From Desulfonatronospira thiodismutans ASO3-1 (GTDB lineage Bacteria; Desulfobacterota; Desulfovibrionia; Desulfovibrionales; Desulfonatronovibrionaceae): a stretch of DNA of 64,000 nt. The stretch lies in contig NZ_ACJN02000003.1 of the NCBI RefSeq assembly GCF_000174435.1, positions 822,263-886,262 of the forward strand. The letters run 5' to 3'. The position numbers and the translations under genes were made by a program. The notes beneath the pieces are model-generated. The model was not told where the DNA came from and did no database searches. It saw only the letters and a program-made list of their open reading frames with translations. Position 1 is the first letter of the stretch; every line of letters starts with the position of its first letter. Positions 1 through 17,702 of this stretch are shown here, one piece after another.

Positions 1-181
1 AAAACATGTACTCTACGCCCGAAGGGGAAAAGAAGGCCAGGACAGCCCCAAGCAAGGCAGCAAAGGGCACCCACTGGATTTTGTCCTTCAGACTGTCGCT
101 TATGCTCTGGACGAATAAAACCGCCAGCAAAGCCACCATGTACAATTCTGGAATTATGAGTTGAGGATTGAAGTTAAGCAA
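1..181 (-). CDS. nuoN: NADH-quinone oxidoreductase subunit N, N-terminal part (cut by window edge)
   Basis: Membrane subunit N of complex I, one of the antiporter-like proton-pumping subunits. Only about the first 60 codons are present, because the gene runs off the left edge. The reading frame starts at a TTG at 181, preceded by AAGGAG at a 7-nt distance; the first ATG in frame is 14 codons further in and has no such site. The visible protein begins LNFNPQLIIPELYMVAL and is hydrophobic, as NuoN N-termini are. It lies 47 bp downstream of nuoM, in the last position of the operon. Identity rests on position and N-terminal character, since the conserved core is outside the window. Confidence 0.8.
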   Translation of the reverse strand, partial: MLNFNPQLIIPELYMVALLAVLFVQSISDSLKDKIQWVPFAALLGAVLAFFSPSGVEYMF

Positions 182-228: not shown

Positions 229-1839
229 CTATTTAAAATCCTGGTGATCAAACCTGTTAAAAACAGCATCTGAATGTGTAACCTGAACAAACTCTCCGCT
301 TGATGCTTCAAGCTCCAGCACCATGCCGGATACTATTTCCGGAGCTGGCTCCGGTACCGGTTCTACCCTGATGTCCTTCTCAGCGTGAAAATTATCCAGG
401 AGGTTTTCTATGGACGGACTGATAAAACTCAGAGCCCGTCCCGGCGCAACACCCAGGTATATGACCAGCAGGCCCAGGGGTACAAGATAGACCCACTCCC
501 TGGTGTTCATGTCCGTCCAGCCCTTGACGCTGCTGGGACTGCCCCAGCCGACATTGAGGAGCAGGCGCAGGAGATAGACCAGTCCGAGGATGAGGCCGAT
601 TACAAAGAGCACCCCAAGTATATAGCTGGCCTCAAAGACTCCAAGGAGTACCAGCAACTTGCTGAAAAACCCGTTGGTGCCGGGAAAACCGAAAGCAGCC
701 AGGCCAAAGAGCAATAAAAATCCCGTATAAGCAGGAAGATACTTGCTCACCCCCATATTTTCTGAGAGTTCACGGCTGTGGCTGCGCTCATAGATAAGGC
801 CCACAAGCAGAAACATGGCCCCCGTGATTATGCCGTGATTGACCATGTGCATGATTGCACCTTCAACGCCTCTGAAGGCGAAGACAAAGATGCCCAGGGT
901 GACAAACCCCATATGGGCGACTGAAGAATAGGCAATGAGCTTTTTCATGTCCGACTGACCAATGGCCAGCAAAGAGCCGACAATTATGGAAATCAGGGCC
1001 AGAGCAATCATGAGCGGTGCAAAAAACTCACTGGCAGCCGGCGTAATGGGCAGACAGAAGCGCAGAAAGCCGTATGTTCCCATCTTGAGCAGAATGGAGG
1101 CCAGAAGAACACTGCCCGCTGTAGGCGCTTCTACGTGTGCTGCAGGCAGCCAGGTGTGAAACGGGTAAAGCGGGACCTTGATGGCAAAGGCCAGGGCCAT
1201 GGCCAGAAAGGTCCAGAGCTGGAACTGGAAGGCATACCTGTGCTCCATGAGTTCAGGGATGGAGAAGGTGCCTGTATTGATGAAAAAGGCCACTATGGCA
1301 GCCAGAAACAAAGTACTGCCGGCCAGGGTGTATAAAAAGAATTTAAGGGAGGCATAACGCCTCTGGGGACCTCCCCAGACGGCGATCATGAGATACATGG
1401 GTATGAGCATGGCTTCCCAGAAAATGTAGAAGAGAATGAAATCCAGGGCGCTGAAGATACCTATGCAGGCCGTGGTCATGAGCAGAAGACAGAAATGAAA
1501 CTCCTTGACCCTCTGCCCTATGTACTTCCAGGAACAAAGCACGCATATGGGCAGAAGCAGCACTGTAAGCAGCACCATGAGCACGCTGATCCCGTCAATG
1601 CCGAGGTAGTAATAAATATTCCAGGCCTCTATCCAGGCATGTTTTTCCACGAATTGAAAATTGGCGGTCGTGGTGTCGAAGCCCAGCAGTATAGGAACGA
1701 CCAGCACGCATTCAATAAGACTCACAACCAATGTAAAAAGTCTGATATTACTGTCTCCCCTGAGAAAGAAGAGCACTACCGCGGCTATGAGCGGAAAAAA
1801 TATCAAAGCGCTGAGCACGGGAAAACCTGTGTTAAGCAT
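229..1839 (-). CDS. nuoM: NADH-quinone oxidoreductase subunit M
   Basis: Proton-pumping antiporter-like membrane subunit of complex I. The 536-residue protein has about 14 membrane segments and the family landmarks: FWEAMLIPMYLM with the TM5 glutamate, KVPLYPFHTWLPAAHVEAPT with the TM7 lysine, ILLKMGTYGFLRF with the TM8 lysine, and MKKLIAYSSVAHMGF. In the late helix it reads GFPGTNGFFSK, with a lysine where E. coli NuoM has a glutamate. The C-terminus is extended by a hydrophilic, acidic tail of about 60 residues. The gene sits between nuoL and nuoN. Confidence 0.96.
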   Translation of the reverse strand: MLNTGFPVLSALIFFPLIAAVVLFFLRGDSNIRLFTLVVSLIECVLVVPILLGFDTTTANFQFVEKHAWIEAWNIYYYLGIDGISVLMVLLTVLLLPICVLCSWKYIGQRVKEFHFCLLLMTTACIGIFSALDFILFYIFWEAMLIPMYLMIAVWGGPQRRYASLKFFLYTLAGSTLFLAAIVAFFINTGTFSIPELMEHRYAFQFQLWTFLAMALAFAIKVPLYPFHTWLPAAHVEAPTAGSVLLASILLKMGTYGFLRFCLPITPAASEFFAPLMIALALISIIVGSLLAIGQSDMKKLIAYSSVAHMGFVTLGIFVFAFRGVEGAIMHMVNHGIITGAMFLLVGLIYERSHSRELSENMGVSKYLPAYTGFLLLFGLAAFGFPGTNGFFSKLLVLLGVFEASYILGVLFVIGLILGLVYLLRLLLNVGWGSPSSVKGWTDMNTREWVYLVPLGLLVIYLGVAPGRALSFISPSIENLLDNFHAEKDIRVEPVPEPAPEIVSGMVLELEASSGEFVQVTHSDAVFNRFDHQDFK

Positions 1840-1907: not shown

Positions 1908-4019
1908 TCATGACAGCCAGATAATGCCGCATACAAGCAGGGCAATGATCACTGCCAGGGCCAGGTAATCCTGAATCCTGCCGTTCTGCAGCCTGGACAG
2001 GGTGCCGCCGGCGCTGTTTTGAACATGGTAGGCCATACCGTCCAGGAATCCGTCAATTCCCTTTCTGTCGAACCAGACCGAGATGCCGGACAGGCCGAAT
2101 ACCCCGGAAGGTGTCAGCCTGTTTATGGCTGTGTCCACGGCTATTTCCACCTTTTCGGCCACTGCCCTGGCCGCTCCCATTACTCCCTTTACAAAGAGCC
2201 AGTTGTAGAAAGCGTTGATGTACCATCTGTTCCACAGGAAGGCGTGCACCAGCTGTACCACCCTGCTGTTTTCATACACAGCATCTGCATCCCATTTTCT
2301 GGCGATGTAGAACATGTAGGCCGGTATTACGCCTATGAGCACGCTGCCTATGGACAGAACCATAATAAGAGTCTTGTCAAAGGAAGGAACGCTTAAGACG
2401 GTGGAGTGTGCCAGATCCTGTACTAACTGCGTCTCGAAGAGTCCGTACAGGGCATATTCCACCCTCATGCCCATAAGCCCGAAGATGACAATCCCGGCCG
2501 CCAGCACGCCGCAGGCGAATGTCTGGGGAAAGTAGCCCTCGTGAACGTGGTTGTGGGGCTTCTTCAGCTCCTGTTTGATATGCCTGCTTTGCTTGCCGTG
2601 AAACATCATTCCGAAATAGCGCGTGGAGTAAAAGGCGGTGAATATCACCGATACCAGCACTATCAGAAAGAGCACTATATGCTGGGATTCAAGGGTGGCC
2701 AGAAGTACGGCCTCCTTGCTCCAGAATCCGGGCAGAGGCGGCACACCTATAAGTGAAAGGGTGGCCAGGCCCATGAAAAGCCAGGTGTAAGGCAGAAACT
2801 TCCTCAGGGCGCCCATATCATTAATATAGATGGAGTGGGCTGCATGGATCACTGTACCGGCGCACAGAAAGAGACAGGCTTTGAACATGGCGTGGCTCAT
2901 GAGATGAAACGTGCCTGCGGCGTATCCCTTGACCAGCAGATCCTGGCTGAATCCGGCCACACCCAGGGCCAGCATCATGTATCCTATCTGACTCACGGTG
3001 GAGTAGGCCAGAATCTTCTTCAGCTCCAGGGCCACTAAGCCCTGGCTGGCCGCCAGGAATGCTGTTATGGCCCCTATCCAGGCCACTATAAGAAAAAAGT
3101 ACATGGCCTCATCCACACCTGCTGTCCAGTAGCCGTAATAGAAAATGGGGATGAAGCGGGCGATGAGAAACACACCGCTCTTGACCATGGTGGCGGCGTG
3201 GATGAGCGCTGATACCGGTCCGGGGCCGGACATGGCCTCGGGAAGCCATTCATGCAGTGGAAACTGGGCTGATTTGCCCACTGGACCGGCAATGAGCAGA
3301 ATACTCACCAGGATGATCATCCCCGGGGTGGCAGCCATTTCAGGTATCCATTCCGGGGCGGTCTGGTACAGTTCCAGGACATTGAAGGTCCCGGCATAGA
3401 AATACATGATAAGTATGCCCCCCAGCATGAGCATGTCCCCCACGCTGGTGACGATAAAGGCCTTGACCCCGCAGGCCGAAGGGGTATCGAAGGAATACGG
3501 CTCAGGGCCGCCGATCCAGTATTTCTTCTCGTCGCGGTAGTAAAAACCTATGAGGCCGTAACTGCAAAGCCCAACAAGCTTCCAGCCGATGAATATGATT
3601 ATCAGGTTGTTGGCCAGAACCAGGAGCAGCATGCTGCCGATAAAGGCATTCATGAGCATCCAGAAGCGCATGATCCCGGGATCGCCCTTCATGTACCCAA
3701 CACAGTAGACCATGATGAAAAAACTGATCACGGCCACCACATTGGCCACGATTATGCTTAGAGGATCAACCAGAACCCCGAAGCTGACCGTAATGGGTGT
3801 GTGCAGCCAGACAAGCTGCGATTCCAGAGGCAGGGCCTCTGCGCTGAAGAGCAGCGGAAAAAGCATGAGCGCACACACTGCTGCCAGAAAGGAGAAAAAG
3901 ACTGCTCCAAAGTTCATTACGGAGGTGCTTATGCGGGCCAGAAACGGGGTGACCAGTACCCCGATGAAGGGAAAGATCAGGCAGAGCCACGCAAGCTGAA
4001 TGTCCATATTCGTACCCAC
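1908..4019 (-). CDS. nuoL: NADH-quinone oxidoreductase subunit L with enlarged lateral-helix region
   Basis: Distal proton-pumping subunit of complex I, which carries the long amphipathic helix that braces the membrane arm. At 703 residues it is about 90 longer than E. coli NuoL (613). It has the family core FPLHEWLPEAMSGPGPVSALIHA and LKKILAYSTVSQIGYMM. Between WYINAFYNWLFVKG (about residue 599) and the last membrane segment (LALAVIIALLVCGIIWLS) there are about 87 residues. By eye the same span in typical NuoL is about 60. The extra 25 or so residues lie roughly at 620-650 (AVAEKVEIAVDTAINRL and after). This matches the helix insertion reported for complex I with a fourth pump. Confidence 0.96.
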   Translation of the reverse strand: MGTNMDIQLAWLCLIFPFIGVLVTPFLARISTSVMNFGAVFFSFLAAVCALMLFPLLFSAEALPLESQLVWLHTPITVSFGVLVDPLSIIVANVVAVISFFIMVYCVGYMKGDPGIMRFWMLMNAFIGSMLLLVLANNLIIIFIGWKLVGLCSYGLIGFYYRDEKKYWIGGPEPYSFDTPSACGVKAFIVTSVGDMLMLGGILIMYFYAGTFNVLELYQTAPEWIPEMAATPGMIILVSILLIAGPVGKSAQFPLHEWLPEAMSGPGPVSALIHAATMVKSGVFLIARFIPIFYYGYWTAGVDEAMYFFLIVAWIGAITAFLAASQGLVALELKKILAYSTVSQIGYMMLALGVAGFSQDLLVKGYAAGTFHLMSHAMFKACLFLCAGTVIHAAHSIYINDMGALRKFLPYTWLFMGLATLSLIGVPPLPGFWSKEAVLLATLESQHIVLFLIVLVSVIFTAFYSTRYFGMMFHGKQSRHIKQELKKPHNHVHEGYFPQTFACGVLAAGIVIFGLMGMRVEYALYGLFETQLVQDLAHSTVLSVPSFDKTLIMVLSIGSVLIGVIPAYMFYIARKWDADAVYENSRVVQLVHAFLWNRWYINAFYNWLFVKGVMGAARAVAEKVEIAVDTAINRLTPSGVFGLSGISVWFDRKGIDGFLDGMAYHVQNSAGGTLSRLQNGRIQDYLALAVIIALLVCGIIWLS

Positions 4020-4086
4020 CTCAAGGTTTATAGTTCGTATCTCTTGGCTGCAGCTCGCAGCCTGTGGTTCACCCGGGAACCAGTGG

Positions 4087-5598
4087 TTACATGTTAGCTA
4101 TTGCCGTGCTGATCACCGGCTCAAAGAGTTCCATGACCAGGGTCGGATACAGCCCGAGAAACGCCGAAAACAGGATTATGACAATTAAGGGAGCCAGCAT
4201 GACCCAGGGCGGATCCTTGATATGATCATCATTGGCCAGTTTTTCAGGCAGTGGCCCGAAAAATATGATCCTGGTGAAATGCACGGCATAGGAAATACTG
4301 AGTAAAATGGCCAGAAGCCCGATAATACCGATGACTAAGCCGAAAGTGTCACCGCGCTCGAATATTCCGGCAAACATGACCACTTCCGCTGCAAAACTGC
4401 TGAACGGTGGTATGCCGGCCAGCATCATGCCGCCGCTTAGAAAAACCAGGGCTGTAATGGGCATCTTGGCGCCCAGCCCGCCAAGGTATTTAACATTTCT
4501 GATGTGAGTCATGTACACCACAAGCCCGCAGGCGGAAAAGAAGACCGTCTTGCCCATAATATGACTCAGGAAGAAAAACAGCCCGCCCTCGATGCTTGCA
4601 GCGGTCAGGGCACCTATACCCAGCATGGAATAAGCACTCTGACTGATGGTGGAACAGGCCGGGATACGCTTCATGTCCCTCTGGGCCAGGGTCAGCAGGG
4701 AGCCGTAAATCATGGTGATGACAGCCAGGACCATGATATAGGGACCGAATACCTGAAAGTCTTCCCAGAGCGGGAGCACAAGCATGCGCACAATAATGTA
4801 GGCGGCTATATTGGCATATACTGCCAGAAGTCCGGCTATACAGGTAGGATGTTCCGCATGGACCCAGGGCATCCAGACATGCAGGGGGACAATGGCCAGC
4901 TTGGCGATCATTCCCACCAGCACCAGCAGTATCGCCCAGAAGGCCAGGGGATCACCGGACATGGTATGTATCTGCTCAATCTGCAAGGAACCGGTCTGAG
5001 AGTAGATTAAGGCGACTCCGGCCAGAAAGAAGAGTGCGGAAAAAATACCCCACACGGTACATATAATGGCCACCCAGACCCGCTCATAATAGCCGAAATA
5101 GGCCATGAGGAAAAACAGGAACAGGGTGAGAACTTCCAGGAAAAAATACATGAGCACCAGGTCACTTGCGAAACTGACCCCCATAAAACCCACGGGAAAG
5201 AAAAGGAAAAGGTAGTAAAAGCATGCGTACCAGCTGATCTCGCCCCTGTTTCCTATGGTGTCGGGATACAGGACCTCGATGCGGTGATATATGTATTTGA
5301 TGGAGTAAGTGCCCAGGGCCAGGCACAGCAGGTTACAGATAAAGGCCACGGCTATGCTTAATCCGTCAGCAACCAGGGTAATGCTGATCTCCGGGCTCTT
5401 GAGGATCTGGTAGGTCTCCGTAATGGGGGTGCCTTTGTAAACCTCAAAAAAAGCCAGAAGCAAAAGAAAAGTGGTGTATGCAAGTCCAGCTACAGCCACC
5501 CATCCGGCTTTCATGCCCAGCTGGAACCTGAAGAGCAGGATCACCAGGGCCACCAGTGCCGGGACAAAGATTATCTGTAGTAGTATTGAGGGAATCAT
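4087..5598 (-). CDS. Extra NuoM/MrpD-like antiporter subunit of complex I
   Basis: A 503-residue polytopic membrane protein of the proton-conducting transporter family shared by NuoL, NuoM, NuoN and Mrp antiporters. It lies inside the complex I operon between nuoK and nuoL, where standard operons have no gene. It keeps the TM5 glutamate (E154 in YFFLEVLTLF), the TM7 lysine and following histidine (K233, H240 in GMIAKLAIVPLHVWMP), and a late-helix glutamate (E405 in SFAAEVVMF). At the TM8 lysine position it appears to have asparagine (N263 in VYANIAAYIIVR). With nuoL, nuoM and nuoN it makes four antiporter-like subunits. I infer that it is built into the complex as a fourth pump. A stand-alone antiporter is less likely given the operon and the longer NuoL. 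Confidence 0.85.
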   Translation of the reverse strand: MIPSILLQIIFVPALVALVILLFRFQLGMKAGWVAVAGLAYTTFLLLLAFFEVYKGTPITETYQILKSPEISITLVADGLSIAVAFICNLLCLALGTYSIKYIYHRIEVLYPDTIGNRGEISWYACFYYLFLFFPVGFMGVSFASDLVLMYFFLEVLTLFLFFLMAYFGYYERVWVAIICTVWGIFSALFFLAGVALIYSQTGSLQIEQIHTMSGDPLAFWAILLVLVGMIAKLAIVPLHVWMPWVHAEHPTCIAGLLAVYANIAAYIIVRMLVLPLWEDFQVFGPYIMVLAVITMIYGSLLTLAQRDMKRIPACSTISQSAYSMLGIGALTAASIEGGLFFFLSHIMGKTVFFSACGLVVYMTHIRNVKYLGGLGAKMPITALVFLSGGMMLAGIPPFSSFAAEVVMFAGIFERGDTFGLVIGIIGLLAILLSISYAVHFTRIIFFGPLPEKLANDDHIKDPPWVMLAPLIVIILFSAFLGLYPTLVMELFEPVISTAIANM

Positions 5599-5663: not shown

Positions 5664-5972
5664 TTATCCTCGCATAGTAATCAGTTTTCCGGCCTCGACG
5701 TTTTTAAAACGTCTGGACACAACAATAAGAATTGCCAGTAAAAGAGTGGCTTCGGCAGCAGCTATGCCCATAACCAGCAGGGCACCCACCTGTCCCAGTT
5801 CATTGGGGGCCGGTGTCAACTGCGCTGAAGCCATGATGCTAAGGCCTGCTCCGTTGAGAATCAGCTCTATTCCCAGCACTATCCCCACCAGCGTCCTTCT
5901 GTATGCAATGCCGAAAATGCCCAGGCACAACAGAAAAATGGCCACCAGGTGGTAGATGGTCATTACGCTCAT
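5664..5972 (-). CDS. nuoK: NADH-quinone oxidoreductase subunit K
   Basis: Small membrane subunit of complex I, 102 residues, with three membrane segments. It shows the family pattern GIVLGIELILNGAGLSIMA, containing the conserved membrane glutamate of helix 2, and AAAEATLLLAILIVVSRRF, containing the second conserved glutamate. These two glutamates form part of the proton path between the quinone site and the antiporter subunits. The start ATG overlaps the stop of nuoJ by 4 nt (ATGA type), which suggests coupled translation. Confidence 0.95.
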   Translation of the reverse strand: MSVMTIYHLVAIFLLCLGIFGIAYRRTLVGIVLGIELILNGAGLSIMASAQLTPAPNELGQVGALLVMGIAAAEATLLLAILIVVSRRFKNVEAGKLITMRG

Positions 5973-6493
5973 TTTTTCCTCCTCATTTCAAATGCCAGGA
6001 TCACTGCTCCGGCCATGGCAATGGTCAGAAGCAACGAAATAAGCTCAAAGGGCAGAATGAAATCCTCCAGGAAAAATCGTCCCAATACGCTTATTTCCGT
6101 CTCTTCAGGTACAAGGAAGGAAGGCGGGGCCGAACGTATGGCAGCGGTTGCCAGCATCACTGCAGGCACCAGTCCGGCGAGTCCGGCGTAAACATACTTC
6201 CTTCCAGGGCTCCTGCCGGTCTCGTCGCCTCCGGGCCAGGCATTTGTAAGCATTATGGCAAAAAAGATAAGTACGCTGACGGCTCCTACGTAGATAAGTA
6301 TCTGCATCAGGGCGATGAAGGGAGCTGCCATGAGAAAAAACAGCCCGGCCACGCCGAAGAGGGTCATTATCAGCCCAACAAGCGCCCGGACCAGACTCTG
6401 GGACAGCACCGTCATAAACCCGCCGACGACAATTATGGCGATATGCCCGAATAGCACCGCCCATGCCAGTCTTTCGTATTCCAGATTTTCCAT
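5969..6493 (-). CDS. nuoJ: NADH-quinone oxidoreductase subunit J
   Basis: Membrane subunit J of complex I, 174 residues, about five membrane segments. The region GVAGLFFLMAAPFIALMQILIYVGAVSVLIFFAIML matches the conserved NuoJ core around helix 3, the helix whose bulge connects quinone chemistry to pumping. The gene directly abuts nuoI (no gap) and overlaps nuoK by 4 nt. Confidence 0.95.
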   Translation of the reverse strand: MENLEYERLAWAVLFGHIAIIVVGGFMTVLSQSLVRALVGLIMTLFGVAGLFFLMAAPFIALMQILIYVGAVSVLIFFAIMLTNAWPGGDETGRSPGRKYVYAGLAGLVPAVMLATAAIRSAPPSFLVPEETEISVLGRFFLEDFILPFELISLLLTIAMAGAVILAFEMRRKK

Positions 6494-7033
6494 TTACTGC
6501 TCCTTTTTCTGAGCCTGATATTGCAGTCTGGACAGCAGGTCGTAGACAAACTCCTGCCTGGTGAATCCGGCTACATAGACGTCGCTGGAGTACCTCAAGG
6601 CCCCGGAAGGGCAGCTCTCAACACACAGACCACAAAGGCAGCAATAATTGTAGTCCAGAACAAAGGACTGCAGTTCAGGCTTGGCCTTTTTGGGCGGAGC
6701 TTCTTTTTTGCCCTCGGGCTGAGTCTCAGTTTCGGTCCCCGGAGCCGCCTTCTTTTCCTCCGCCGCCTTCTTCTTGGGCTTGCTGGCCTTGAGGGAAATG
6801 CAGGCACCGGGGCAGATGCGCACGCAGTTGCTGCAGGCTATGCACTTGGACTTCGTGGGATCTTCATCGCTTGGAACAAGCTCTATATGCCCACGGTAGC
6901 CATCCAGGTTGGTAACCTGACGCGGGTAATGGACGGTTATCTGGGGAGACTTGAAGTTGACCGCAGTCACCTTCATCCCCACCAGAAGGCTCCACATGCC
7001 CGACAGGGTTTCGCTCAAGCTTTTGACTATCAT
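6494..7033 (-). CDS. nuoI: NADH-quinone oxidoreductase subunit I (2x 4Fe-4S ferredoxin)
   Basis: Peripheral-arm subunit that holds clusters N6a and N6b and passes electrons towards NuoB. The two cluster motifs are CIACSNCVRICP and CCLCGLCVESCP. They are separated by a Lys/Glu/Pro/Ala-rich linker of roughly 45 residues (KPKKKAAEEKKAAPGTETET and on), longer than in E. coli NuoI; it is probably a disordered surface loop. Length 179 residues. The gene overlaps nuoH by 4 nt. The N-terminal helix (SETLSGMWSLLVGMKVTAVN) resembles the membrane-anchoring helix of the family. Confidence 0.94.
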   Translation of the reverse strand: MIVKSLSETLSGMWSLLVGMKVTAVNFKSPQITVHYPRQVTNLDGYRGHIELVPSDEDPTKSKCIACSNCVRICPGACISLKASKPKKKAAEEKKAAPGTETETQPEGKKEAPPKKAKPELQSFVLDYNYCCLCGLCVESCPSGALRYSSDVYVAGFTRQEFVYDLLSRLQYQAQKKEQ

Positions 7034-8013
7034 AAGGCAATCACCGCTAAGGTTATCAGAAGATTAAGAACGGCCAAGGGGATCAGCCATTTCCAGCAGA
7101 TGTTGAGCAGCTGATCAAAACGCACCCTTGGAAAGGTCCACCTGATCCAGATCATGATAAGCAGCAGGACATAGACCTTGGCCAGAAACCACCATATTCC
7201 GGGAGCACCAGGTCCCTGGAATCCGCCCAGAAAAAGAATGGCCATGATACAGGCTGCCACCACCATGTAGGCGTATTCCGCCAGAAAAAAGCAGGCAAAG
7301 GCCATGCCCGAGTATTCGGTGTGAAATCCAGCGGTAAGTTCGCTTTCGGCCTCGGGCAGGTCGAAGGGGTTCCTGTTGGTTTCGGCCAGGGCACAGATGA
7401 AAAAGAGAATAAAGGCCAGTGGCTGATATACTATGTACCACTGCCACGGCCATGTCCCCTGTCCGTCGGCGATGTCGAAGAGGTTGAAGGTCCCGGTCAT
7501 GAACACAATGGACAGGACCACCAGGAGCAGAGGAATTTCATAGGCCACACCCTGGGAGATATCCCTGGCCGCCCCTATGAGGCCGTATTTGTTCTGTGAG
7601 GCCCAGCCGGCCAGACACAGGGCCAGGACGTTGATCCCGGTAAAAGCCAGGATCAGGATCAGGCCCACATTGGTATTTATTACCTGCAGATGCGGCCCGA
7701 AGGGAATGGCGATAAAGCAGACTATGGCCGGGGCAATGGATATCATCGGGGCCAGCCAGTACAGGAAACTGTCCGCCCCCTTGGGGGTGAATATCTGCTT
7801 GCCCACCAGCTTGAGACCGTCGGCAATGGGCTGCAGAATTCCGTGGGGAAAGCATGGGGGACCCACTTCGTAAGGACCGGGCCTCCTGTGGATAAAACCG
7901 GCTACTTTCCTTTCCAGATACACCAGGACCACTGCGTTGAGGCCTACAAAGGCCATGATCGCCAGAAGCCCCACAAAAATGATAATAAACGGCGTAGGTA
8001 TTGCTTCTATCAT
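7030..8013 (-). CDS. nuoH: NADH-quinone oxidoreductase subunit H
   Basis: Membrane subunit that forms the quinone-binding chamber with NuoB and NuoD. The 327-residue protein has about eight membrane segments. It shows the signature VVLVYLERKVAGFIHRRPGP near the N-terminus, and the acidic region AETNRNPFDLPEAESELTAG followed by FHTEYSGM, which lines the quinone cavity. The start and stop codons overlap nuoD and nuoI by 4 nt each. Confidence 0.96.
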   Translation of the reverse strand: MIEAIPTPFIIIFVGLLAIMAFVGLNAVVLVYLERKVAGFIHRRPGPYEVGPPCFPHGILQPIADGLKLVGKQIFTPKGADSFLYWLAPMISIAPAIVCFIAIPFGPHLQVINTNVGLILILAFTGINVLALCLAGWASQNKYGLIGAARDISQGVAYEIPLLLVVLSIVFMTGTFNLFDIADGQGTWPWQWYIVYQPLAFILFFICALAETNRNPFDLPEAESELTAGFHTEYSGMAFACFFLAEYAYMVVAACIMAILFLGGFQGPGAPGIWWFLAKVYVLLLIMIWIRWTFPRVRFDQLLNICWKWLIPLAVLNLLITLAVIAL

Positions 8014-9170
8014 CTGTCTATCTCCGGTATTACCAGGTCAAGGCTTGCCAGAATCGCGATGGCGTCCGAGATGAGCGTTCCCTGGGCGACTTCGGAAAAG
8101 AGGCTCAGGTTGGAGAAGCCGGGGGCCCGCAGCTTGAGGCGATACGGGGACTTGCCCCCGTCGCTTACCAGGTGCATCCCTATTTTCCCCCGTGCCCCTT
8201 CTAAAGCGAAGTATACATCGCCCGCCGGAGGCTTGGGACGCTTGGGGGCTTTGGGCAGGATATAATCGCCTTCAGGCAGGGTATCCAGGGCCTGTTCGAT
8301 TATTTTGATACTCTCCTGTATCTCATCCATGCGCACCAGGTAGCGGCCCATGGAGTCGCATGTGTCGTAGGTAGGTATGTTGAAGTCGAAACGGTTGTAA
8401 ATGGAGTATGGTTCTGCGCGCCGCACATCGTAAGCCTGTCCGGACCCCCGCAGTACCGGTCCGGTGGCTCCGTACTTGCGGCAGGTATCAATGGGGATCT
8501 CTCCAACTTCTTCCATTCGTTTGCGCAGGATGAAGTTGTCCGTGACCAGGTCTTTGAACATCTTGGCCCTATCCTTGAGCCTGGCGCATTCGGCCCTGGT
8601 AGCTTCAATGAACTTGTCGTCGATGTCCGCGGACACCCCGCCGAAGCGGTAATAGCAGTAGGTCAGCCTGGACCCGGTGTTGCGCTGCATAATGTCCTGG
8701 ATCCTTTCCCTGTCGTCAAAGGCGTACATGATGGGAGTAAACGCCCCAAGATCCAGGAGAATGGCCCCCCACCACAGAAGGTGCGAAGATATCCGGTTGA
8801 GTTCACAGGTGATGACCCTGATGTACTCGGCCCTTTCCGGAACCTCGATGCCCATAAGCCTTTCCACGGCAGCCACATGAGCCCAGTTCCAGGCCAGGGC
8901 GTGCAGATAGTCGGTACGCCCGGGGTTGGGCAGATACTGGGGGTAGCTCATCACCTCGGCCATCTTTTCGTGCATGCGGTGGATATACCCCAGGACCGGC
9001 TCGGCCCTTAAAATATACTCACCGTCGATTTCCAGCAGAATGCGCAGTACTCCGTGAGTGGATGGATGCTGAGGCCCCATGTTCAGGACCAGAGTATCCT
9101 CGCGCTCTGTGGGCTGGAACCTCTGGGAATAAAAATCCCCCTTGGTGTCTAATCTCAGATCAAGGTTCAT
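8010..9170 (-). CDS. nuoD: NADH-quinone oxidoreductase subunit D
   Basis: Peripheral-arm subunit, 49-kDa type, related to the large subunit of NiFe hydrogenases. It forms the quinone site with NuoB. The N-terminal part has MGPQHPSTHGVLRILLEIDG and GYIHRMHEKMAEVMSYPQYL, with the conserved histidines. Later it has RGSGQAYDVRRAEPYSIYNRFDF. The 386-residue length is normal for a separate NuoD. NuoC and NuoD are not fused here, unlike in E. coli. Overlaps of 4 nt with nuoC and nuoH. Confidence 0.96.
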   Translation of the reverse strand: MNLDLRLDTKGDFYSQRFQPTEREDTLVLNMGPQHPSTHGVLRILLEIDGEYILRAEPVLGYIHRMHEKMAEVMSYPQYLPNPGRTDYLHALAWNWAHVAAVERLMGIEVPERAEYIRVITCELNRISSHLLWWGAILLDLGAFTPIMYAFDDRERIQDIMQRNTGSRLTYCYYRFGGVSADIDDKFIEATRAECARLKDRAKMFKDLVTDNFILRKRMEEVGEIPIDTCRKYGATGPVLRGSGQAYDVRRAEPYSIYNRFDFNIPTYDTCDSMGRYLVRMDEIQESIKIIEQALDTLPEGDYILPKAPKRPKPPAGDVYFALEGARGKIGMHLVSDGGKSPYRLKLRAPGFSNLSLFSEVAQGTLISDAIAILASLDLVIPEIDR

Positions 9171-9757
9171 GATTGATCCCTGCTTGGTTTGTTGGAACAG
9201 TTGGTGATTGCCTGGATAAATTCCTGGCTGTCAGCGGAGACGGGGCTGTGTGCCCGGTCCGGATAAATCTGGTGCAGGTCCTTGAGTGCAGATTCTTCTT
9301 TGAGCAGAGGCGGTGGTCCGTCATGGTCCGGAGCCAGCAACAGTGGCAGCAGATTGGGATGACCCTTGAAGCGCACCCCGAAAAAATCGAAGCACTCCCT
9401 TTCATGCCAAGCCGCTCCGGGATAAATATCGTAAATGGAAGGGACTTCAGGATTTTCCTTAGAGATCATGACCCGGATTCCCACCCGGCCTGGCTGATCA
9501 AAACGATCAAAGTGATAGACCATCTGAAAGCCCTCCTGCATATCTACACAGGAAACGTCTTCCAGAAAAAAGCCGGCCTGATCCAGCTTGCCCACGGCAT
9601 TCAGGAGGTCCTGGGGGGTCACGAAAAAATCGGCGTCATAACCGGTATATGCAGGACCCTGCGGCTCTTCCTTTTTGGCTTCTTTCCCGGCGGCTTTTTC
9701 AGCTTTTTTTGTTTTCTCGGCCGCCTGTTCCGGCTGGGCGTTTTCTTCGCTCATCAA
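9167..9757 (-). CDS. nuoC: NADH-quinone oxidoreductase subunit C
   Basis: Peripheral-arm 30-kDa subunit. The conserved core is in the second half: IYDIYPGAAWHERECFDFFG followed by VRFKGHPNLLPLLLAPD, which matches the family pattern of W-x-E-RE-x-x-D-x-F-G. The first 30 or so residues are a charged Lys/Glu/Ala-rich segment (AAEKTKKAEKAAGKEAKKEE) not seen in the core family. It resembles the charged linker of NuoI in this operon. There is a gap of 117 bp to nuoB, the largest in the operon. Confidence 0.93.
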   Translation of the reverse strand: MMSEENAQPEQAAEKTKKAEKAAGKEAKKEEPQGPAYTGYDADFFVTPQDLLNAVGKLDQAGFFLEDVSCVDMQEGFQMVYHFDRFDQPGRVGIRVMISKENPEVPSIYDIYPGAAWHERECFDFFGVRFKGHPNLLPLLLAPDHDGPPPLLKEESALKDLHQIYPDRAHSPVSADSQEFIQAITNCSNKPSRDQS

Positions 9758-9874: not shown

Positions 9875-10423
9875 TTACCATTGTTCGCTTTTAGTTGCTG
9901 TTTCAGGCACAGGCCACCAGCGTCTGCCGGTGATTTTCTTCTGGACCTGAAAAAGCCCCTCCAGCAGGCCTTCAGGCCTGGGCGGACACCCCGGCACATA
10001 GACATCCACCGGTATTATGCGATCCACTCCTTCCACGATACCGTACTGGTTCTTGTAGACAAAGGGACCGCCGGAGATGGCGCAGTTGCCCATGGCAATG
10101 ACCCACTTGGGAGAGGGCATCTGTTCGTAGAGCATTGTCACTAAGGGTGACAGTTTTTTATTGACTGTACCGGCGACGATCATCAGATCCGACTGCCTCG
10201 GAGACGGTCTGAAAACTTCAGCCCCGAAACGGGCCGAATCAAACCTGGCCATGCCGAAACCCATCATTTCTATGGCGCAGCAGGCCAGCCCGAAAGTCAT
10301 GGGCCATAGAGACATGGCCCTGCAGATGTTCAGAATTTTCTGAACAGGTGCATGGTCGATTATGGGTTCGTCATAGCTGGTGTCAGCATATGCATGTGTT
10401 AGGGTTTGATTTTCTTGGGCCAT
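9875..10423 (-). CDS. nuoB: NADH-quinone oxidoreductase subunit B
   Basis: Carries the terminal cluster N2, which reduces quinone. The 182-residue protein has the tandem cysteine motif in [15 protein letters not shown], and the other two ligands in [14 protein letters not shown] and [16 protein letters not shown]. It also has the family signature [17 protein letters not shown]. The start overlaps the end of nuoA by 25 nt; an ATG at 10423 is the first in the frame. Confidence 0.96.
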
Positions 10424-10782
10424 GTAAAGACTCCTTTTTTCCAGAAGTAGATGACTGAGGCGAACAGAATAACGATAAAGATCAGCAGCTTAATGAAGCT
10501 GACCAGATCGGGCGCCTCAACATAGTGAGTGGCCACCGGAAAGAGGAAGAGGACGTCCACGTCAAAGGCCAGAAATATCAGGGCGTAGAAGTAGTAGTTT
10601 ATCCCGAATTTGACCCATGCGGATCCATGAGGAATCATGCCGCATTCGTAAGGCATCCTTAATTTTTCGGCCCGGGCTTTGGGGGCCAGGAGGTGGGAAA
10701 GGAGAAACGGGACTACTGCAAAAAAGACAATGCCCAGAACAAAGAAATAGATTATCGCTATATGTAGCCAGGAAACGCTCAT
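10399..10782 (-). CDS. nuoA: NADH-quinone oxidoreductase subunit A
   Basis: First gene of the complex I operon. The 127-residue membrane protein has three membrane segments and the family motif [26 protein letters not shown] followed by [14 protein letters not shown], with the conserved acidic residues. No nuoE, nuoF or nuoG lies upstream: the next gene is tamB. Electrons therefore do not enter through the usual NADH module encoded beside it, unless that module is encoded elsewhere. Confidence 0.95.
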
Positions 10783-11492: not shown

Positions 11493-14400
11493 TCAGTAGT
11501 CGCGCTTCCAGAAGAGAAACACCCCGCCGTCGGCATCGGCCTCCACACTTCCTTCCAGGGATATCCTCGGGGTAAGCTCAACCTCCACCGCCACTTCGTC
11601 AGACCCCGGAGCTGTCCCCTTCTTGACCTGCATGTAAACCCTTTCATGCACATATCTGCCCAGGCCGAACTGCAGTTCTCCTTCATCGTCCCTGGTGACC
11701 TGGATGTCATCCACTCCCACCAGGGACCGCACCTGGTCCATGACTCCCGGACCGGCCTCCCCTGTTGCCAGAGTACGTACGGCATTCAAAAGGGTCAGCG
11801 CCTGAAAGGGGGTAAGATCTGAGAGGTCCCGTCCGAAAAGAATCCAGGCCAGGATTTCGTCCTCATGCATGGGCGGATCTGACTCCAGGTCCAGATCCGG
11901 GTTCAGGGCGCGGCCGTGAATACGCACAGTTATATTCCTGTCCCTCTGGCGGTAGTGCGCCCTCATATCCAGGGTGGGGTCCGGGGGATATGCCCCATCA
12001 AGATAAACCTGGGAATCACGGTCCAGATCGAACCTGCGGTCAAGGAATGTAAAGCGGCCTCTTACAGGGCTCAGCTCCCCGCGTATCCTTGGTTCATGGG
12101 CCTTGCCGTCAATATAGAGGTGTCCGGCCCATTCAGAGTCAAGGCCCCGCCCTCGCACATATACACGGGCTGGAAAATTGAGCTCCAGGTCCAGATCCAC
12201 TGGATAGTCTTCCAGATCCATCTGCCTGGGCGGGGGAGGCAGATCACTTGGAGGCTTGTTCTTTTCCGTTACATCAATGTGCACCACGCCTGGTGGGGAC
12301 CCCGGAGGCAGGCGCGCGTCTATGCTTCCAAAGGTCAAGGACCCCTTTACTGAAGCCCGGGTCATATCCCCGGAAAGCTCCAGGTCGCAGGAAGTTATAT
12401 TGACTACAGCCAGCGGATGTCTCAAAATATTGGTATTCTCAATCTGCAGATCGAAATCCCAGGGCATTTCCATTTCCGGATCCAGACCAAGACTGCCACT
12501 GCCCCTGATCCTGCCCGCCTCACCATCACTTGCTGCAAGCTCTTCCAGGACTACCTGGTCGTTTCTGCCCCGGATCAGCGCATTGATATCCTTTAAGTAA
12601 ACCCCGGCCACTGTATGCTCAAAAACGCCGTCATCCAGTTCTATTTTTCCGTCCAGCTCAGGCTCATGCAGTGTTCCGGATATATCCACCCCTGACTGTA
12701 AAATACCTGAAAGGGTAAGCTCCGGCGGCAGGAAAAGGGGAGCCACCTTGGCCAGTTCAACATCGGAAACCAGCCTGCCCTGCAGGACAGCCGGATCCTG
12801 CAGTTCAAATACCGCCGGTTCAAGGGAAAAGACAGCAGGGAGGCCAAGCTCCAGACCGAGAAGTTCATCAGGGCCCTGAAACAAAGCGGCTTTGAGCTGC
12901 ACTGCACCGTCTTCCACAAGCAGGTCCGCATTCACGTCCAGACGGGGCATATCTTCCATATCCGGGTGCCTTGATCGAAGCTCGCTTAGCCCGACCCCTG
13001 CTGTGACCACCGGCCCGGCAGGATCTCCATGCACCTTGAAATCACCGGTCAGCCGGCCCTCAACAACTTCGAAGGCCTCCAGGGGAAGCTGGCTCAGTAA
13101 AATATCATGCAGCTCTGCCTCAAAAAACACTTCTTCAGAATTAAGGCCGCCGTGAAATTCCAGCCGGCCGTCTCCCCAGGCCAGCTCACCCGGACTTATG
13201 TTTATTTCTTCATCCCCCACCTTTACCTGAAAGGGCTTTAAAAGGGAGAAATCTTCAAAGGCATAAATGCCCTGCAGCACATCCAGGTCTATCAAATGAT
13301 CCCCCCTGTCTAAGGAGTATGAGGCATCAGCCTTGAGCTCCAAAGGATACACAGCCCGGCCCTCCAGACTGGTGACAAGGCCTAAGTCCGTATCCTGCCC
13401 CTGCACTTCAGTCTCCCATGAGCTGAGATATGCCTCACCCAGGTCCAGGCCGGCCAGGTTCAGCTCGATATTGTAGTTCCTGTCGGCAAAAAGGTCCTGT
13501 CCCTGCCCTGCAAGCTCCAGGTAGACAACGCTCATGCTGTCAACCAACAGGTCCATGGCCTGAAAATCCAGGGTCGCGTCCTGCCTGTCCCGGGTTTTGT
13601 CCAGGAAAACACTGCCTTGAAGATCGCCGTAGATTTCCAGGCCGGCCAGCCCGGCGAAGGCGGACAGTTCCGGGACATCCACGTCCAGCGCACCTTGAGC
13701 CAGAAAAGTATCCAGATCCAGATCCAGGTCCCCGCGCACGCTGGAATCAAATCCGGATAGAAACAGGTTGGCCACCTTGAGATTTTTTTCAACCAGCTCA
13801 AAGTCGGAGCCAAGCTCCACACTCCCCTGCTCTGAATCCAGTGAGGCCTGGACTTTTCCCGAAAAACTCTCCCGGGTATAAACCGAATCCACGGAAGCCT
13901 GGATATCCATGAGATCCAGGTCCGCACCAGGCTTAACCCCGTCAAGACCGGCATCCAGATTCAGTTCGAGCTCCTCGGGGCCGCCCCTGGCCGTGGCCCT
14001 TGCAGACAGGCTGCCGCCCGTCTCCCGGTCCAGGGTCGCTCCCAGAAACTCCAGGCTGGCCATGTCCAGGCCGGCCTCAATGTCCATATCCATTTTTTTC
14101 AGGTCCACCAGCCCGGATGAAAAAAACTCGGCCTCCTTGGTGATGAGCTCCAGTTCTTCAAGCTCAAGGATGTAAGGTTCAGACATGGATGCTGCAGCTC
14201 TCAGGCCCGGCTTGTCACCCACGAGAGCATCAAGAAGGTCCTGCCCGGAGCTGAACTCTTCACCGGAAAGGGACAACTGCAGGTTGTAGGTCTCCTCTGC
14301 AATATTTCCGTGAGTATCGGCCTTGAAGTTTAGAGAACCTGCAAGCTCCAGGTCCGCAGCTTCCTCGGGCATGAGATTTTCCAGGGCAGAGATTTTGCTT

Positions 14401-15869
14401 TCCAGTGCAGCCTCGAAATTTAGATCATCAAGGTCAATCCGGCCCCGGGCAAGGGCTTCCAGATTCCGGGAGACAAGCCTTAGCTCCTTAAAATCCACCA
14501 GGCCGCTGTCGGCGTAATCCACATCAAAACCGATTTCCATTTCGCCGGGAAGCTGCGGATAATGTTCATACCCCAGCCCCTGGAGCATTACCCTGCCCCG
14601 GGCCAGGGCCGTGGTGCCGTTTACTTCACCGGGATATTCCAGATCCGCCTGCAGGTGAAGACTTGCCAGATCCAGGTCATGCCCCTTGAGTTCCTCCAGC
14701 CAGAGGTTCACCTGGCCTCCCGGAGAGGTGACCGGCCCATGAAACTCTGCTTCGAGCTCTGCAGGACTGGTGGAAGCAAACTGTGCCTTATCCAGTAGAG
14801 GATTTAAATCTTGTACCAGCATCTCAGCGCTGCCCTGCATAAACATTTCATCCAGGACAAGCTCGGCCCGGGAGTCAAGACTGAACTGCTCCGAGTCCAG
14901 GTGCAGGCTCTGCAGGCTCAACAGGTTTTCAGCATAATCCATGCTCAGTTGCGTTTTCAGATGCAGGGGGTGGCCTAAGTAAAAATCCAGGGGCTCGGGA
15001 GCTATTGCCGGGCTTATGGAAGCTTCTGCATCGGCCGAAAACTCCAGGCTCTCCTCCAGGAGCTTCATATTCATGTCCATGGCCAGGTCCAGAAGATCTC
15101 CGCCCCTGACCGTCAAGCTGCCCGGCCAGTCCTGGACAGGTCCCGTGCCTTCCAGGACAAGCTCCAGGCTGTCGGGCATATCTTCTGCAGGAACGAGTGC
15201 AGGCAGTGTGGCCGAATCGAAAAAACGCAGGTACAACTCCAGCTCATGGGAATTGTGAGAAAAATCCATGGACATATCCAGGCTGGTTTCATCTTTGTCC
15301 AGCCGGCTGATATTCAGGCCGTCCACGGCAAATCCTGTCTGATACGCCGACAGCGCCCCCTGCATAAAGAACTCTGCTTCTTCCCCCAGGACCTCTTCAC
15401 CCATGCGCGCTCTGTCCAGATACAGGCTTTCCACGATAAGAGGCGGCAACGGCCATTTCCATTCAAGCTTCTTTTTAAGTTCATCAGGCACTTCAGGTTC
15501 TTCCATGGGCTCAGTGTGCGGAGCTCTGGACATGTAAAGGGCCGCGGCTCCGAGTTTTCTCACCACTATCCGCCCCTGAAAAAGATCCCCCAAAGACCAG
15601 TCAAGCCCTGAATCCTGCAATTCCAGCCAGACACCGTCTTTATCGTGTATTTCTATGCTCTGGACCTCGAAGTTGAAAGGAATTCTGCCCGAGATACCGC
15701 TTATCTCGACCCGGCCGTCTTCCCAGACCAGGACCCGGTTCAGGGTGGACTCCAGATGCTTCTGCCCGGAATCTGTCTGCAGCCAGGCCAGGGCCGCCCC
15801 CACAAGGAGCACCAGCAGCACCAGCAGGATGCCCAGGGCAATAATTCCACGTTTTATATATCTTTTCAT
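11493..15869 (-). CDS. tamB: TamB-like translocation and assembly protein (DUF490 family)
   Basis: Very large inner-membrane-anchored protein, 1458 residues, thought to span the periplasm and work with an Omp85 partner in outer-membrane assembly or lipid transfer. The N-terminus has one membrane helix (RGIIALGILLVLLVLLVGAA) followed by the family start pattern (LENTLNRVL-like segment, then ISGIPFNFEVQSIEIHD-type sequence). The middle is a long run of alternating beta-strand sequence rich in Leu, Asp and Glu. The last 400 or so residues match the TamB C-terminal domain (GRFTFLDRRFDLDRDSQVYL, ARVYVRGRGLDSEWAGHLYI) and end in a beta-strand with a terminal aromatic (FLFWKRDY). The tamA-like gene is immediately upstream, which supports the assignment. 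Confidence 0.88.
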   Translation of the reverse strand: MKRYIKRGIIALGILLVLLVLLVGAALAWLQTDSGQKHLESTLNRVLVWEDGRVEISGISGRIPFNFEVQSIEIHDKDGVWLELQDSGLDWSLGDLFQGRIVVRKLGAAALYMSRAPHTEPMEEPEVPDELKKKLEWKWPLPPLIVESLYLDRARMGEEVLGEEAEFFMQGALSAYQTGFAVDGLNISRLDKDETSLDMSMDFSHNSHELELYLRFFDSATLPALVPAEDMPDSLELVLEGTGPVQDWPGSLTVRGGDLLDLAMDMNMKLLEESLEFSADAEASISPAIAPEPLDFYLGHPLHLKTQLSMDYAENLLSLQSLHLDSEQFSLDSRAELVLDEMFMQGSAEMLVQDLNPLLDKAQFASTSPAELEAEFHGPVTSPGGQVNLWLEELKGHDLDLASLHLQADLEYPGEVNGTTALARGRVMLQGLGYEHYPQLPGEMEIGFDVDYADSGLVDFKELRLVSRNLEALARGRIDLDDLNFEAALESKISALENLMPEEAADLELAGSLNFKADTHGNIAEETYNLQLSLSGEEFSSGQDLLDALVGDKPGLRAAASMSEPYILELEELELITKEAEFFSSGLVDLKKMDMDIEAGLDMASLEFLGATLDRETGGSLSARATARGGPEELELNLDAGLDGVKPGADLDLMDIQASVDSVYTRESFSGKVQASLDSEQGSVELGSDFELVEKNLKVANLFLSGFDSSVRGDLDLDLDTFLAQGALDVDVPELSAFAGLAGLEIYGDLQGSVFLDKTRDRQDATLDFQAMDLLVDSMSVVYLELAGQGQDLFADRNYNIELNLAGLDLGEAYLSSWETEVQGQDTDLGLVTSLEGRAVYPLELKADASYSLDRGDHLIDLDVLQGIYAFEDFSLLKPFQVKVGDEEINISPGELAWGDGRLEFHGGLNSEEVFFEAELHDILLSQLPLEAFEVVEGRLTGDFKVHGDPAGPVVTAGVGLSELRSRHPDMEDMPRLDVNADLLVEDGAVQLKAALFQGPDELLGLELGLPAVFSLEPAVFELQDPAVLQGRLVSDVELAKVAPLFLPPELTLSGILQSGVDISGTLHEPELDGKIELDDGVFEHTVAGVYLKDINALIRGRNDQVVLEELAASDGEAGRIRGSGSLGLDPEMEMPWDFDLQIENTNILRHPLAVVNITSCDLELSGDMTRASVKGSLTFGSIDARLPPGSPPGVVHIDVTEKNKPPSDLPPPPRQMDLEDYPVDLDLELNFPARVYVRGRGLDSEWAGHLYIDGKAHEPRIRGELSPVRGRFTFLDRRFDLDRDSQVYLDGAYPPDPTLDMRAHYRQRDRNITVRIHGRALNPDLDLESDPPMHEDEILAWILFGRDLSDLTPFQALTLLNAVRTLATGEAGPGVMDQVRSLVGVDDIQVTRDDEGELQFGLGRYVHERVYMQVKKGTAPGSDEVAVEVELTPRISLEGSVEADADGGVFLFWKRDY

Positions 15870-15914
15870 CTTAAATGATGCACCTCTGATCTCTGATCTT
15901 TGACATCTGACATC

Positions 15915-17702
15915 TTAAAAAGCCTGCCCGATGCTCAAATAAAGCTGATATGCCGAGTCCTTGCTTCTGCGGTTCAGGGGAAAGGCAATGTCAGCCCTTA
16001 AGGGGCCGAAATCTGTATAATAGCGGTAGCCGATACCTGTTCCCCACCTGAGATTTTCAGAAAAATCCGGGTATGAATCCTCGTAGGCCTGTCCGCCATC
16101 CAGAAACATCACCAGACCTGAGTTGCGGCTGAGCTTGAACCGCAGCTCCGTATTGACCTCGGCCAGGGCCAGCCCCCCTATGGGATCACCATCCTCCATG
16201 GGCCCCACCTTCTGGTAGGCGTATCCCCGGATGGAGCCTCCGCCTCCGGCATAAAACCGCTCGTCCGGAGGCACTTTTCTTTTGTCTTCCGCCCCGATGG
16301 CCCCGTAGGCCACCCTGTTGGCCAGAACGATCCTTTGAGGCCAGAGCTCCAGGTAATTGCTCAGGCTGGCATAAGTCTTGAGAAACCTGGTTTCCAGATC
16401 CATGGTGTCCAGAAAAGGAGTAAGCCTGAGGTTGAAGCGCAGGCCCTGGGAAGGGTCCAGTTCATTGTCACGGGCATCATACAGGAGGTTGCCCGGGAAA
16501 AAAAGAAGCCCCAGGTCTGTTTTCTCTCCCATCTGTTCAACCTGGGCCAGTCTGTAGCCTGCTCCAGCGCCCACGGATAATTCACGGGTCAAATCGCGGT
16601 CCACGGTGCCTGTGGCGGATATGCTGGTGGCATCATAGGCGTCCTGGTATTCTTCCCTGTAGCCTGATTTGAGGATGAGGCGCTGATCCGGGCGCATGAA
16701 GCTGGGAATGGTATAGCTTCCGCCCAGAAAGCGCTCCACATCCGAAAGCTGCAGATCCGCTTCCAGTGTCTCCCCTTTGCCCCTGAGGTTTCTATGTACC
16801 CATCCCAGGCGCAGTTCCGGTCCTATGTCCGACTGGTACCCAATACCGGCCCTGAAGGTCCTGGGAGACCTCTCACGCACACGCACCTGCATGGGCAGCA
16901 GGTCTTCTTCATCCAGTTCATATCCATGGTTCACCTCCACCACGGAAAAAAGGCCGGTGGCCATAAGATCCCGGCGCAGACCCTCCATTTGCGGCGCTCT
17001 GAATTCATCTCCTGTTTCCCAGGGGACCCTTTCCAGGACCACTTCCTCCTGCACCCGTTCCAGGCCGACTATTTCCATGTCCCCGAAACCGGCCCGGGGA
17101 CCGGGATCGAAGGCCAGATATACGATTGCGCTGTTATCTGCATGATCAATGACCACCTCCTGGACCCGGGTCCTGGGAAAAGGATGGCCCCGGGCCTTTA
17201 AATAGCTGTCCAGCTTTCGTGTGGACTCCTTGACCGTGGAAGACCGGATCCTTTCACCCTTGTACAGGCCGAGCACTTCAGGGTCGGGCACTTCCCCTTC
17301 CCAGTCGGAGTCCTTGGGAATGATCTCCACATCTTCAATGAGAAATTCCGGGCCCTGGTTGACCTCAAACACTACACGCACAGGGGTCTCATCTTCATGG
17401 ATGGTGTAGGTGATGTCCGGGGCGTAATATCCAAAGGACCGAAGAGCTCCGACAAACTCCGGGATGTCGTCCCTGACTCTTCTTTTTAACTGAGAAACGC
17501 TCACCAGCGGCCGTTCTTTAAGGGCGACGGTATCCGATACCTGGTTTAGTATCTGGCGCATGCGCGAATCAATGTCCCCGCGGAACTCGGTCTCATATGA
17601 GGTCGCTGCCGGGTCCTGCTCCTGCTGGTCCGCGGAGGCATAGCCCTGCAGGCCGTACAGAAGCAAAGCCAGAAAAAAAAGGATGGAGATCTTGGTTGTC
17701 AT
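15915..17702 (-). CDS. tamA: TamA-like Omp85 outer-membrane protein
   Basis: Omp85-family barrel with periplasmic POTRA domains, the outer-membrane partner of TamB. From the ATG at 17702 the product has 595 residues, starting with a signal peptide (TKISILFFLALLLYGLQGYA, cut after ASA). The track of the frame opens at an upstream TTG at 17759, but that would put 19 hydrophilic residues ahead of the signal peptide, so the ATG is preferred; neither has a strong ribosome site. POTRA-like sequence fills about residues 40-280 and the barrel follows. The barrel carries the motif FYAGGGGSIRGYAYQ, the lid-loop VRGF/Y signature. The end LSIGQAF has the terminal Phe of the family. Located 45 bp before tamB. 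Confidence 0.88.
   Translation of the reverse strand: MTTKISILFFLALLLYGLQGYASADQQEQDPAATSYETEFRGDIDSRMRQILNQVSDTVALKERPLVSVSQLKRRVRDDIPEFVGALRSFGYYAPDITYTIHEDETPVRVVFEVNQGPEFLIEDVEIIPKDSDWEGEVPDPEVLGLYKGERIRSSTVKESTRKLDSYLKARGHPFPRTRVQEVVIDHADNSAIVYLAFDPGPRAGFGDMEIVGLERVQEEVVLERVPWETGDEFRAPQMEGLRRDLMATGLFSVVEVNHGYELDEEDLLPMQVRVRERSPRTFRAGIGYQSDIGPELRLGWVHRNLRGKGETLEADLQLSDVERFLGGSYTIPSFMRPDQRLILKSGYREEYQDAYDATSISATGTVDRDLTRELSVGAGAGYRLAQVEQMGEKTDLGLLFFPGNLLYDARDNELDPSQGLRFNLRLTPFLDTMDLETRFLKTYASLSNYLELWPQRIVLANRVAYGAIGAEDKRKVPPDERFYAGGGGSIRGYAYQKVGPMEDGDPIGGLALAEVNTELRFKLSRNSGLVMFLDGGQAYEDSYPDFSENLRWGTGIGYRYYTDFGPLRADIAFPLNRRSKDSAYQLYLSIGQAF

Follow-up and report, generated by a model that had tools for sequence, protein, structure and literature searches.

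We analysed a 64,000-nucleotide stretch of the 4.1 Mb genome of Desulfonatronospira thiodismutans ASO3-1 (contig NZ_ACJN02000003.1, positions 822,263 to 886,262; G000:C3:822263-886262), hereafter the window, to which all operon coordinates refer. Its minus strand carries an operon for complex I, the respiratory enzyme that converts electron flow into a proton gradient, of the order nuoA-B-C-D-H-I-J-K-X-L-M-N, in which X, located between nuoK and nuoL, encodes a fourth antiporter-like subunit and L occupies the NuoL position. In our reading, the soda-lake sulfate reducers with this operon probably have a complex I that lacks the NADH module, with a distal end made from an X–L pair of a sodium/proton antiporter (Mrp) and a membrane arm ordered N-M-X-L. 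With slightly less assurance, we lean towards regarding the enzyme as a third independent four-pump architecture of complex I, with a transplanted Mrp X–L pair, a reversed X/L polarity and the Glu removed from transmembrane helix 12 (TM12) of NuoM.

The operon combines nuoA, B, C, D, H, I, J and K with genes for antiporter-like subunits, the gene set that identifies a complex I, and holds none of the mrp genes for MrpB, C, E, F and G that identify an Mrp (CPA3) complex. The genes nuoE, nuoF and nuoG, coding for the NADH module, were found neither in the operon nor upstream of nuoA within the window, and proteins with a NuoF-type domain are encoded only elsewhere in the genome, on another contig. 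The lack of this module makes the enzyme a headless complex I and does not exclude it from complex I. A first-pass annotation of the window had proposed the fourth antiporter-like subunit, and this proposal is borne out by the match of all four proteins (X, L, M and N) to PF00361 and by the recurrence of the K-X-L-M-N order in the relatives carrying X. In addition, the AlphaFold model of X (predicted local distance difference test, pLDDT, 91) shows an antiporter-like fold, with NuoM/ND4 as its best fold match.

Mrp ancestry of X and L

Within the window's own genome, X shares 73% identity with a protein of a stand-alone Mrp cluster (L014:3335-4843) and 24% with the NuoM of its operon. Similarly, L shares 52-74% identity with the L proteins of Mrp clusters, 72% with its closest cluster copy, and 31-36% with most canonical NuoL, those of the same order included (34% with E. 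coli NuoL). Against TIGR01974, the canonical NuoL model, L scored 469 bits, above the cut-off of 407.5, while the canonical NuoL of the order mostly score about 730-770.

In a superfamily tree of 123 antiporter-like proteins, the X and the L proteins of nuo operons form one clade each, both nested inside Mrp-cluster proteins, and long starred branches separate the X clade from all NuoM. Specifically, in the focused trees, the nuo-operon X clade (X_nuo, support 100/100) lies inside the Mrp-cluster X proteins (X_mrp), with L043_X1 as its sister, and the nuo-operon L clade (L_nuo, 100/98), computed with the tail and the lateral helix excluded, lies inside the Mrp-cluster L proteins (L_mrp), with the L of locus L043 as its sister (95/92). 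Constraining L_nuo to group with canonical and headless NuoL was rejected by the approximately unbiased (AU) test (p 0.027), and L_mrp appeared as a single clade in 0% of the bootstrap trees. The high identity to Mrp-cluster proteins and the nesting inside Mrp groups are the reasons why we call X and L an Mrp-derived pair.

The first-pass annotation had set a grouping of the 503-residue X with stand-alone Mrp antiporters against the complex I link. Such a grouping is literally what the trees returned; the link nevertheless stands, because X and L form nuo-operon clades of their own, synteny is conserved, L carries a complex-I-type tail and NuoM shows matching changes. The Mrp grouping alters the origin of X, not its membership of complex I. 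The annotation's connection to four-pump complex I and to a helix extension one subunit long holds, while the assignment to the type with a duplicated NuoM gives way to the identities (24% vs 73%) and the trees.

Locus L043, from a genome of the same family (G010), is ordered D1-X-L-X', with X immediately upstream of L as in the nuo operon, and G010 also encodes an X-type complex I (locus L038), that is, one with X in its operon. The simplest reading of these sequences would be that an X–L pair of the L043 kind replaced nuoL. X as a stray Mrp gene was considered too, and is unlikely since K-X-L-M-N synteny recurs in relatives. Contig C2 of the window's own genome contains an extended Mrp cluster of the order E-F-G-B-B-B-C-D1-D2-A620-X502 (L014:3335-12792) and a further Mrp-type cluster with three antiporter-like proteins (L013:2378-9497).

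X was detected at E < 1e-130 in 12 of the 297 genomes of the order Desulfovibrionales, one of which (G018) additionally keeps a canonical complex I; in a thirteenth genome (G054), L, M and N are likewise present up to the end of the contig. The closest named relatives of X are from Desulfonatronospira metagenome-assembled genomes, and the named carriers are largely soda-lake genera. A scan of GTDB species genomes found nuo-operon X restricted to Desulfovibrionales, and placed all the remaining X loci with a readable context in Mrp-type clusters. Clusters of the order mrpE-F-G-B-B-B-C-D1-L-X without nuo genes occur in Desulfobacterota, anaerobic methanotrophic (ANME) archaea, Acidobacteria, SAR324 and others. 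Two clusters carry odd labels: L055, labelled Dehalococcoidia, closely resembles the clusters of Desulfonatronospira relatives, and L078, labelled Nitrosotalea, those of Methanophagales; binning errors or recent transfer are the likely causes.

Tail and lateral helix of L

The identity of the window L to the L of locus L043 falls along the protein from 85% through 75% and 51% to 28% (residues 637-699); the corresponding values for canonical and headless NuoL are about 40% at the start and still 30-36% in the tail, E. coli excepted. A hidden Markov model (HMM) built on the final 58 residues of 36 canonical NuoL, none of them from X-type operons, matched the nine L_nuo tails without exception (E 2.7e-10 to 1.5e-13; 2.7e-10 for the window L) and no Mrp L tail (best E 0.023). 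Conversely, an HMM of Mrp L tails matched most Mrp tails and no L_nuo tail. Judged by these profiles, L is a chimera, in which an Mrp-type body is followed by about 60 residues of complex-I type. A headless-type tail HMM matches the L_nuo tail as well, so that the tail could have come from the NADH-type or from the headless lineage.

The length of the lateral helix was taken between two anchors, an NRWY..Y motif after TM15 and a D...IDG motif before TM16. This distance is 54 residues in nine of nine X-type NuoL, while the 29 canonical NuoL with both motifs gave 28 (26 cases), 29 (two cases) and one mis-parse; in E. coli NuoL the second motif was not found. The insert is 26 residues long (54 vs 28), an exact value that replaces the first-pass figure of about 25. 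If helical, such an insert would measure about 39 Å and could let the helix span three neighbours instead of two.

Tail lengths counted from the first anchor fit one helix unit per spanned subunit, with the exceptions given below. In Mrp clusters with D1 and one X, the L tails are mostly 82-87 residues long, and tails of 112-113 residues occur at loci L043 and L055, with two X each, and at locus L060, whose contig ends right after the first X. The L tails of X-type complex I measure 106-108 residues. Repeats are visible in this region elsewhere. The ANME-type Mrp L proteins of about 790 amino acids at L071:5854-8226 and L078:7626-10004 contain four copies of a helix-region repeat spaced 27, 37 and 37 residues, and a 694-residue NuoL of genome G359 (L188:2649-4733), with a NuoM gene directly upstream, contains three lateral-helix repeats exactly 27 residues apart. 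The latter locus probably encodes a 2M-type complex I, that is, one with an extra NuoM, whose helix grew by tandem duplication.

Charge pairs and competing explanations

Listed for TM5, TM7, TM8 and TM12 in turn, the key residues of the X-type operons are EKNE for X (11/11), KKKK for L (13/13) and EKKK for M (13/13); those of canonical complex I are EKTK for L and EKKE for M. As the first-pass annotation had suggested, the window X keeps the TM5 Glu (E155) and the TM7 Lys (K233) and has an Asn at TM8 (N263), its TM12 residue being E405. This Asn was also considered as an adaptation to complex I and rejected, since it is an invariant trait of the family in and out of complex I (39/39). Beyond that annotation, we noted K143 in TM5 of L, K394 in TM12 of NuoM, and a start of L most likely at Met5, giving 699 residues instead of the 703 read from a GTG start (1908-4019, minus strand). 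The TM5 Glu is present in all canonical and headless NuoL examined, so that L, with K143, departs from canonical NuoL, and every canonical or headless NuoM examined has a Glu in TM12. Headless-type and related complex I at 11 loci (L171, L173, L174, L176, L181-L187) lack another hallmark residue: in all 11, NuoM has Leu in place of the TM7 Lys, its TM5 residue being Glu or Asp.

According to PMC7419157, TM12 of a subunit forms a coupling point with TM5/TM7 of the adjacent one, the two being 7 Å apart in Mrp. The TM5 Glu, replaced by Lys in L, is reported to be essential in MrpA, where E140A abolishes antiport (PMC5703873). With the order N-M-X-L, the TM12/TM5 pairs are K/E, K/E and E/K, and with N-X-M-L they are K/E, E/E and K/K; the complementarity of the former set is what favours N-M-X-L. 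In Mrp clusters with an A620-type distal subunit (TM5 Glu), TM12 of X mostly carries Lys, the exceptions being the X of loci L014 and L044; loci L071/L078 are TM12-partner exceptions in the opposite direction.

All together, these data suggest the following scenario. The X–L pair would have come from an extended Mrp-type cluster of the order D1-X-L-X' and displaced the resident NuoL; behind the Mrp-type body of L, only the lateral-helix end and TM16 are of complex-I type. In the resulting arm, the lateral helix of L, longer by one 26-residue unit, would span three neighbours, and TM12 of each inner subunit would face TM5 of the outer one (N K383/M E142, M K394/X E155, X E405/L K143). The contact between X and L would therefore be charge-reversed, with Glu on the inner subunit and Lys on the outer one and the usual charge set retained. 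Charge changes would travel via X to L, and most likely one additional ion would be moved per cycle; a low-potential donor, e.g. ferredoxin, would plausibly suit both the absence of the NADH module and the energy needed for the extra ion. Gene content, the ancestry of X and L, the chimeric nature of L, the insert length and the residues are established, whereas the assembly and the N-M-X-L order, which helix length and charge pairs back, the passage of charge changes and the extra ion are what we infer.

Several points weigh against this scenario. Neither X, without the TM8 Lys, nor L, without the TM5 Glu, holds the complete textbook set of a pump. The charge match depends on a small number of evolutionary changes: in the X tree, TM12 changed once and its partner three times, an association without statistical weight of its own, and the E to K change in TM12 of NuoM is a single event. 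As for the helix, one Mrp-type L has a single X nearby, yet is longer by a 27-residue repeat (L189:8328-10439); the ANME tails at loci L071 and L078 reach 199 residues and several others 101-106, the latter owing to a loop-like stretch; and the AlphaFold model of L has a pLDDT <50 over most of the tail.

The incomplete residue sets of X and L make a serious rival, though a clearly less probable one, of an enzyme in which both proteins are assembled in complex I and no extra proton is pumped, the pair acting jointly as a single unit or as a cation-handling or stabilising end at high salt and high pH. Two facts agree with it: the same pair is also present in stand-alone Mrp clusters, the known relatives of which are sodium/proton exchangers, and most named carriers belong to soda-lake genera. 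The TM7 Lys and ionisable TM12 residues retained in X and L count against it, as do the changes in the lateral helix and NuoM that accompany the pair and suggest that it is built into the coupling chain.

It is rather improbable, although compatible with the remainder of the proposed architecture, that the tail of L is itself Mrp-derived and became complex-I-like by convergence, through docking on NuoN/NuoM. All the tails are distant homologues, the identity to most canonical tails is just 30-36% over about 55 residues, and the tail fits more than one complex I lineage as donor. The HMM outcome is nonetheless cleanly either-or across about 45 positions, and the same complex-I-type tail pattern recurs at the distal end of green complex I, in a subunit that belongs to a different Mrp family.

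That X and L, encoded in the operon, work as a separate Mrp-type antiporter appears very unlikely. Their nearest relatives are indeed Mrp-cluster subunits and the genome has other Mrp clusters; the operon, however, contains no other NuoL, so that complex I would be left without L, and the complex-I-type tail of L and the matching change in NuoM also argue against it. Finally, we give almost no credit to the reading of X as a second NuoM copy, the arrangement of the Nitrospira 2M complex I: the insert equals the 26 residues given for 2M in PMC9040806, the fold match is NuoM/ND4 and a deep X–NuoM sistership appears in the 123-protein tree (support 91), but a 2M-type origin is already contradicted by the identities and the long starred branches set out above, and the operon holds a NADH-lineage NuoM of its own.

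Operon composition and related systems

The remaining subunits of the operon are of mixed affinity. NuoB is 58-72% identical to the headless 11-subunit complex I of the phylum, NuoD 52-63% to the headless and 45% to the NADH type, and NuoH 51-54% to the headless type and 40% to the NADH type of G018. In the tree, NuoN groups with the headless type and NuoM with NADH-type NuoM (both with 100 in the Shimodaira-Hasegawa-like approximate likelihood ratio test, SH-aLRT), the identity of NuoM being 44-52% to the latter vs 32-36% to the headless type. Headless-type B, D, H and N, NADH-type M and Mrp-type X and L therefore combine at least three sources in one enzyme. Adjoining the operon, window positions 11493-17759 hold two open reading frames of 1458 and 614 amino acids, TamB-like and TamA/Omp85-like as judged by eye only.

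Table 1. Operon genes and features discussed, in window positions.
Feature	Position	Strand	Basis or remark
NuoN start	1..181, remainder beyond window (L012:1529-2944)	-	groups with headless 11-subunit type
NuoM	229..1839	-	groups with NADH-type complex I NuoM
NuoM K394, Lys at TM12 Glu position (E. coli E407)	658..660	-	K in 13/13 X-type-operon NuoM
L, NuoL-position subunit, 699 aa from Met5	1908..4007	-	Mrp-type body and complex-I-type tail
L final ~60 residues (from ~residue 638), complex-I-type lateral-helix end and TM16	1911..2096	-	tail HMMs, identity drop
L lateral-helix stretch between anchors N593 and D647, 54 residues	2067..2231	-	anchor-motif distance
L K143, Lys at TM5 Glu position	3579..3581	-	K in all L_nuo and L_mrp examined
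X, fourth antiporter-like subunit, 503 aa	4087..5598	-	Mrp-cluster identity, trees, AlphaFold antiporter-like fold
X E405, TM12 Glu	4384..4386	-	
X N263, Asn at TM8 Lys position	4810..4812	-	N in 39/39 X family members
NuoK	5664..5972	-	
NuoJ	5969..6493	-	
NuoI	6494..7033	-	
NuoH	7030..8013	-	
NuoD	8010..9170	-	
NuoC	9167..9757	-	
NuoB	9875..10423	-	
NuoA, first gene of the operon	10399..10782	-	

Among the variants treated in PMC9040806 are the 2M complex I, with an extra NuoM and a helix insert, and the green complex I, in which two MrpD-like proteins replace NuoL and whose rhizobial form is credited there to Degli Esposti and Martinez-Romero 2016. For the latter we used the S. meliloti operon (locus L169). 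Like the X type, it has four antiporter-like subunits, NuoL being replaced by two Mrp-like subunits (D1 and D2) between nuoK and nuoM, and its distal subunit, D2, carries a complex-I-type tail. However, D1 shares 50% identity with MrpD2_14, as does D2 with A620_14 (both at locus L014), against about 25% with X and L, to which D1 and D2 are not orthologous, forming separate clades in the 123-protein tree; moreover, the TM12 Glu of NuoM and the TM5 Glu of D2 are kept. Going by the sequences, the green and the X-type complex I seem to have captured different Mrp pairs in parallel.

In the Nitrospira 2M complex I of Chadwick et al. 2018, as PMC9040806 and PMC7784846 describe it, the antiporter-like subunits also number four and the lateral helix is extended by about 26 residues, but its extra subunit is a second NuoM, whereas that of the X type is Mrp-derived and NuoL itself is replaced. 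Complex_I_3 of Ca. Manganitrophaceae likewise mixes Mrp-like with Nuo subunits, and its distal subunit has a helix insert of 26 residues; unlike the X type, it has five antiporter-like subunits, the green pair and two NuoM (PMC9040806). The extended Mrp clusters L043, L045 and L060 share with the X type the same X and L families, the TM5 Lys of L and the TM8 Asn of X, but lack nuo genes and have an Mrp-type L tail. In Ca. Nitrospira alkalitolerans, NuoM/NuoL-like genes lie beside mrpD (PMC7784846). An X-type complex I of Desulfovibrionales was not found described in the literature searched, and Chadwick et al. 2018, outside that search, may already list the type.

Open questions on complex I concern the number of antiporter-like subunits that it requires, which of these are pumps, and the roles of the lateral helix, the TM5 Glu and the residue in TM12. 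The X-type enzyme bears on them as a case in which the distal end would have been swapped as a module, the helix kept in steps of about 26 residues and one coupling point charge-reversed. Together with green complex I, it points to at least two occasions on which complex I took its distal end from Mrp clusters. The idea of charge asymmetry was tested by the E407K substitution in E. coli NuoM (PMC9271201), and the X-type enzyme may be seen as a natural experiment on the same idea.

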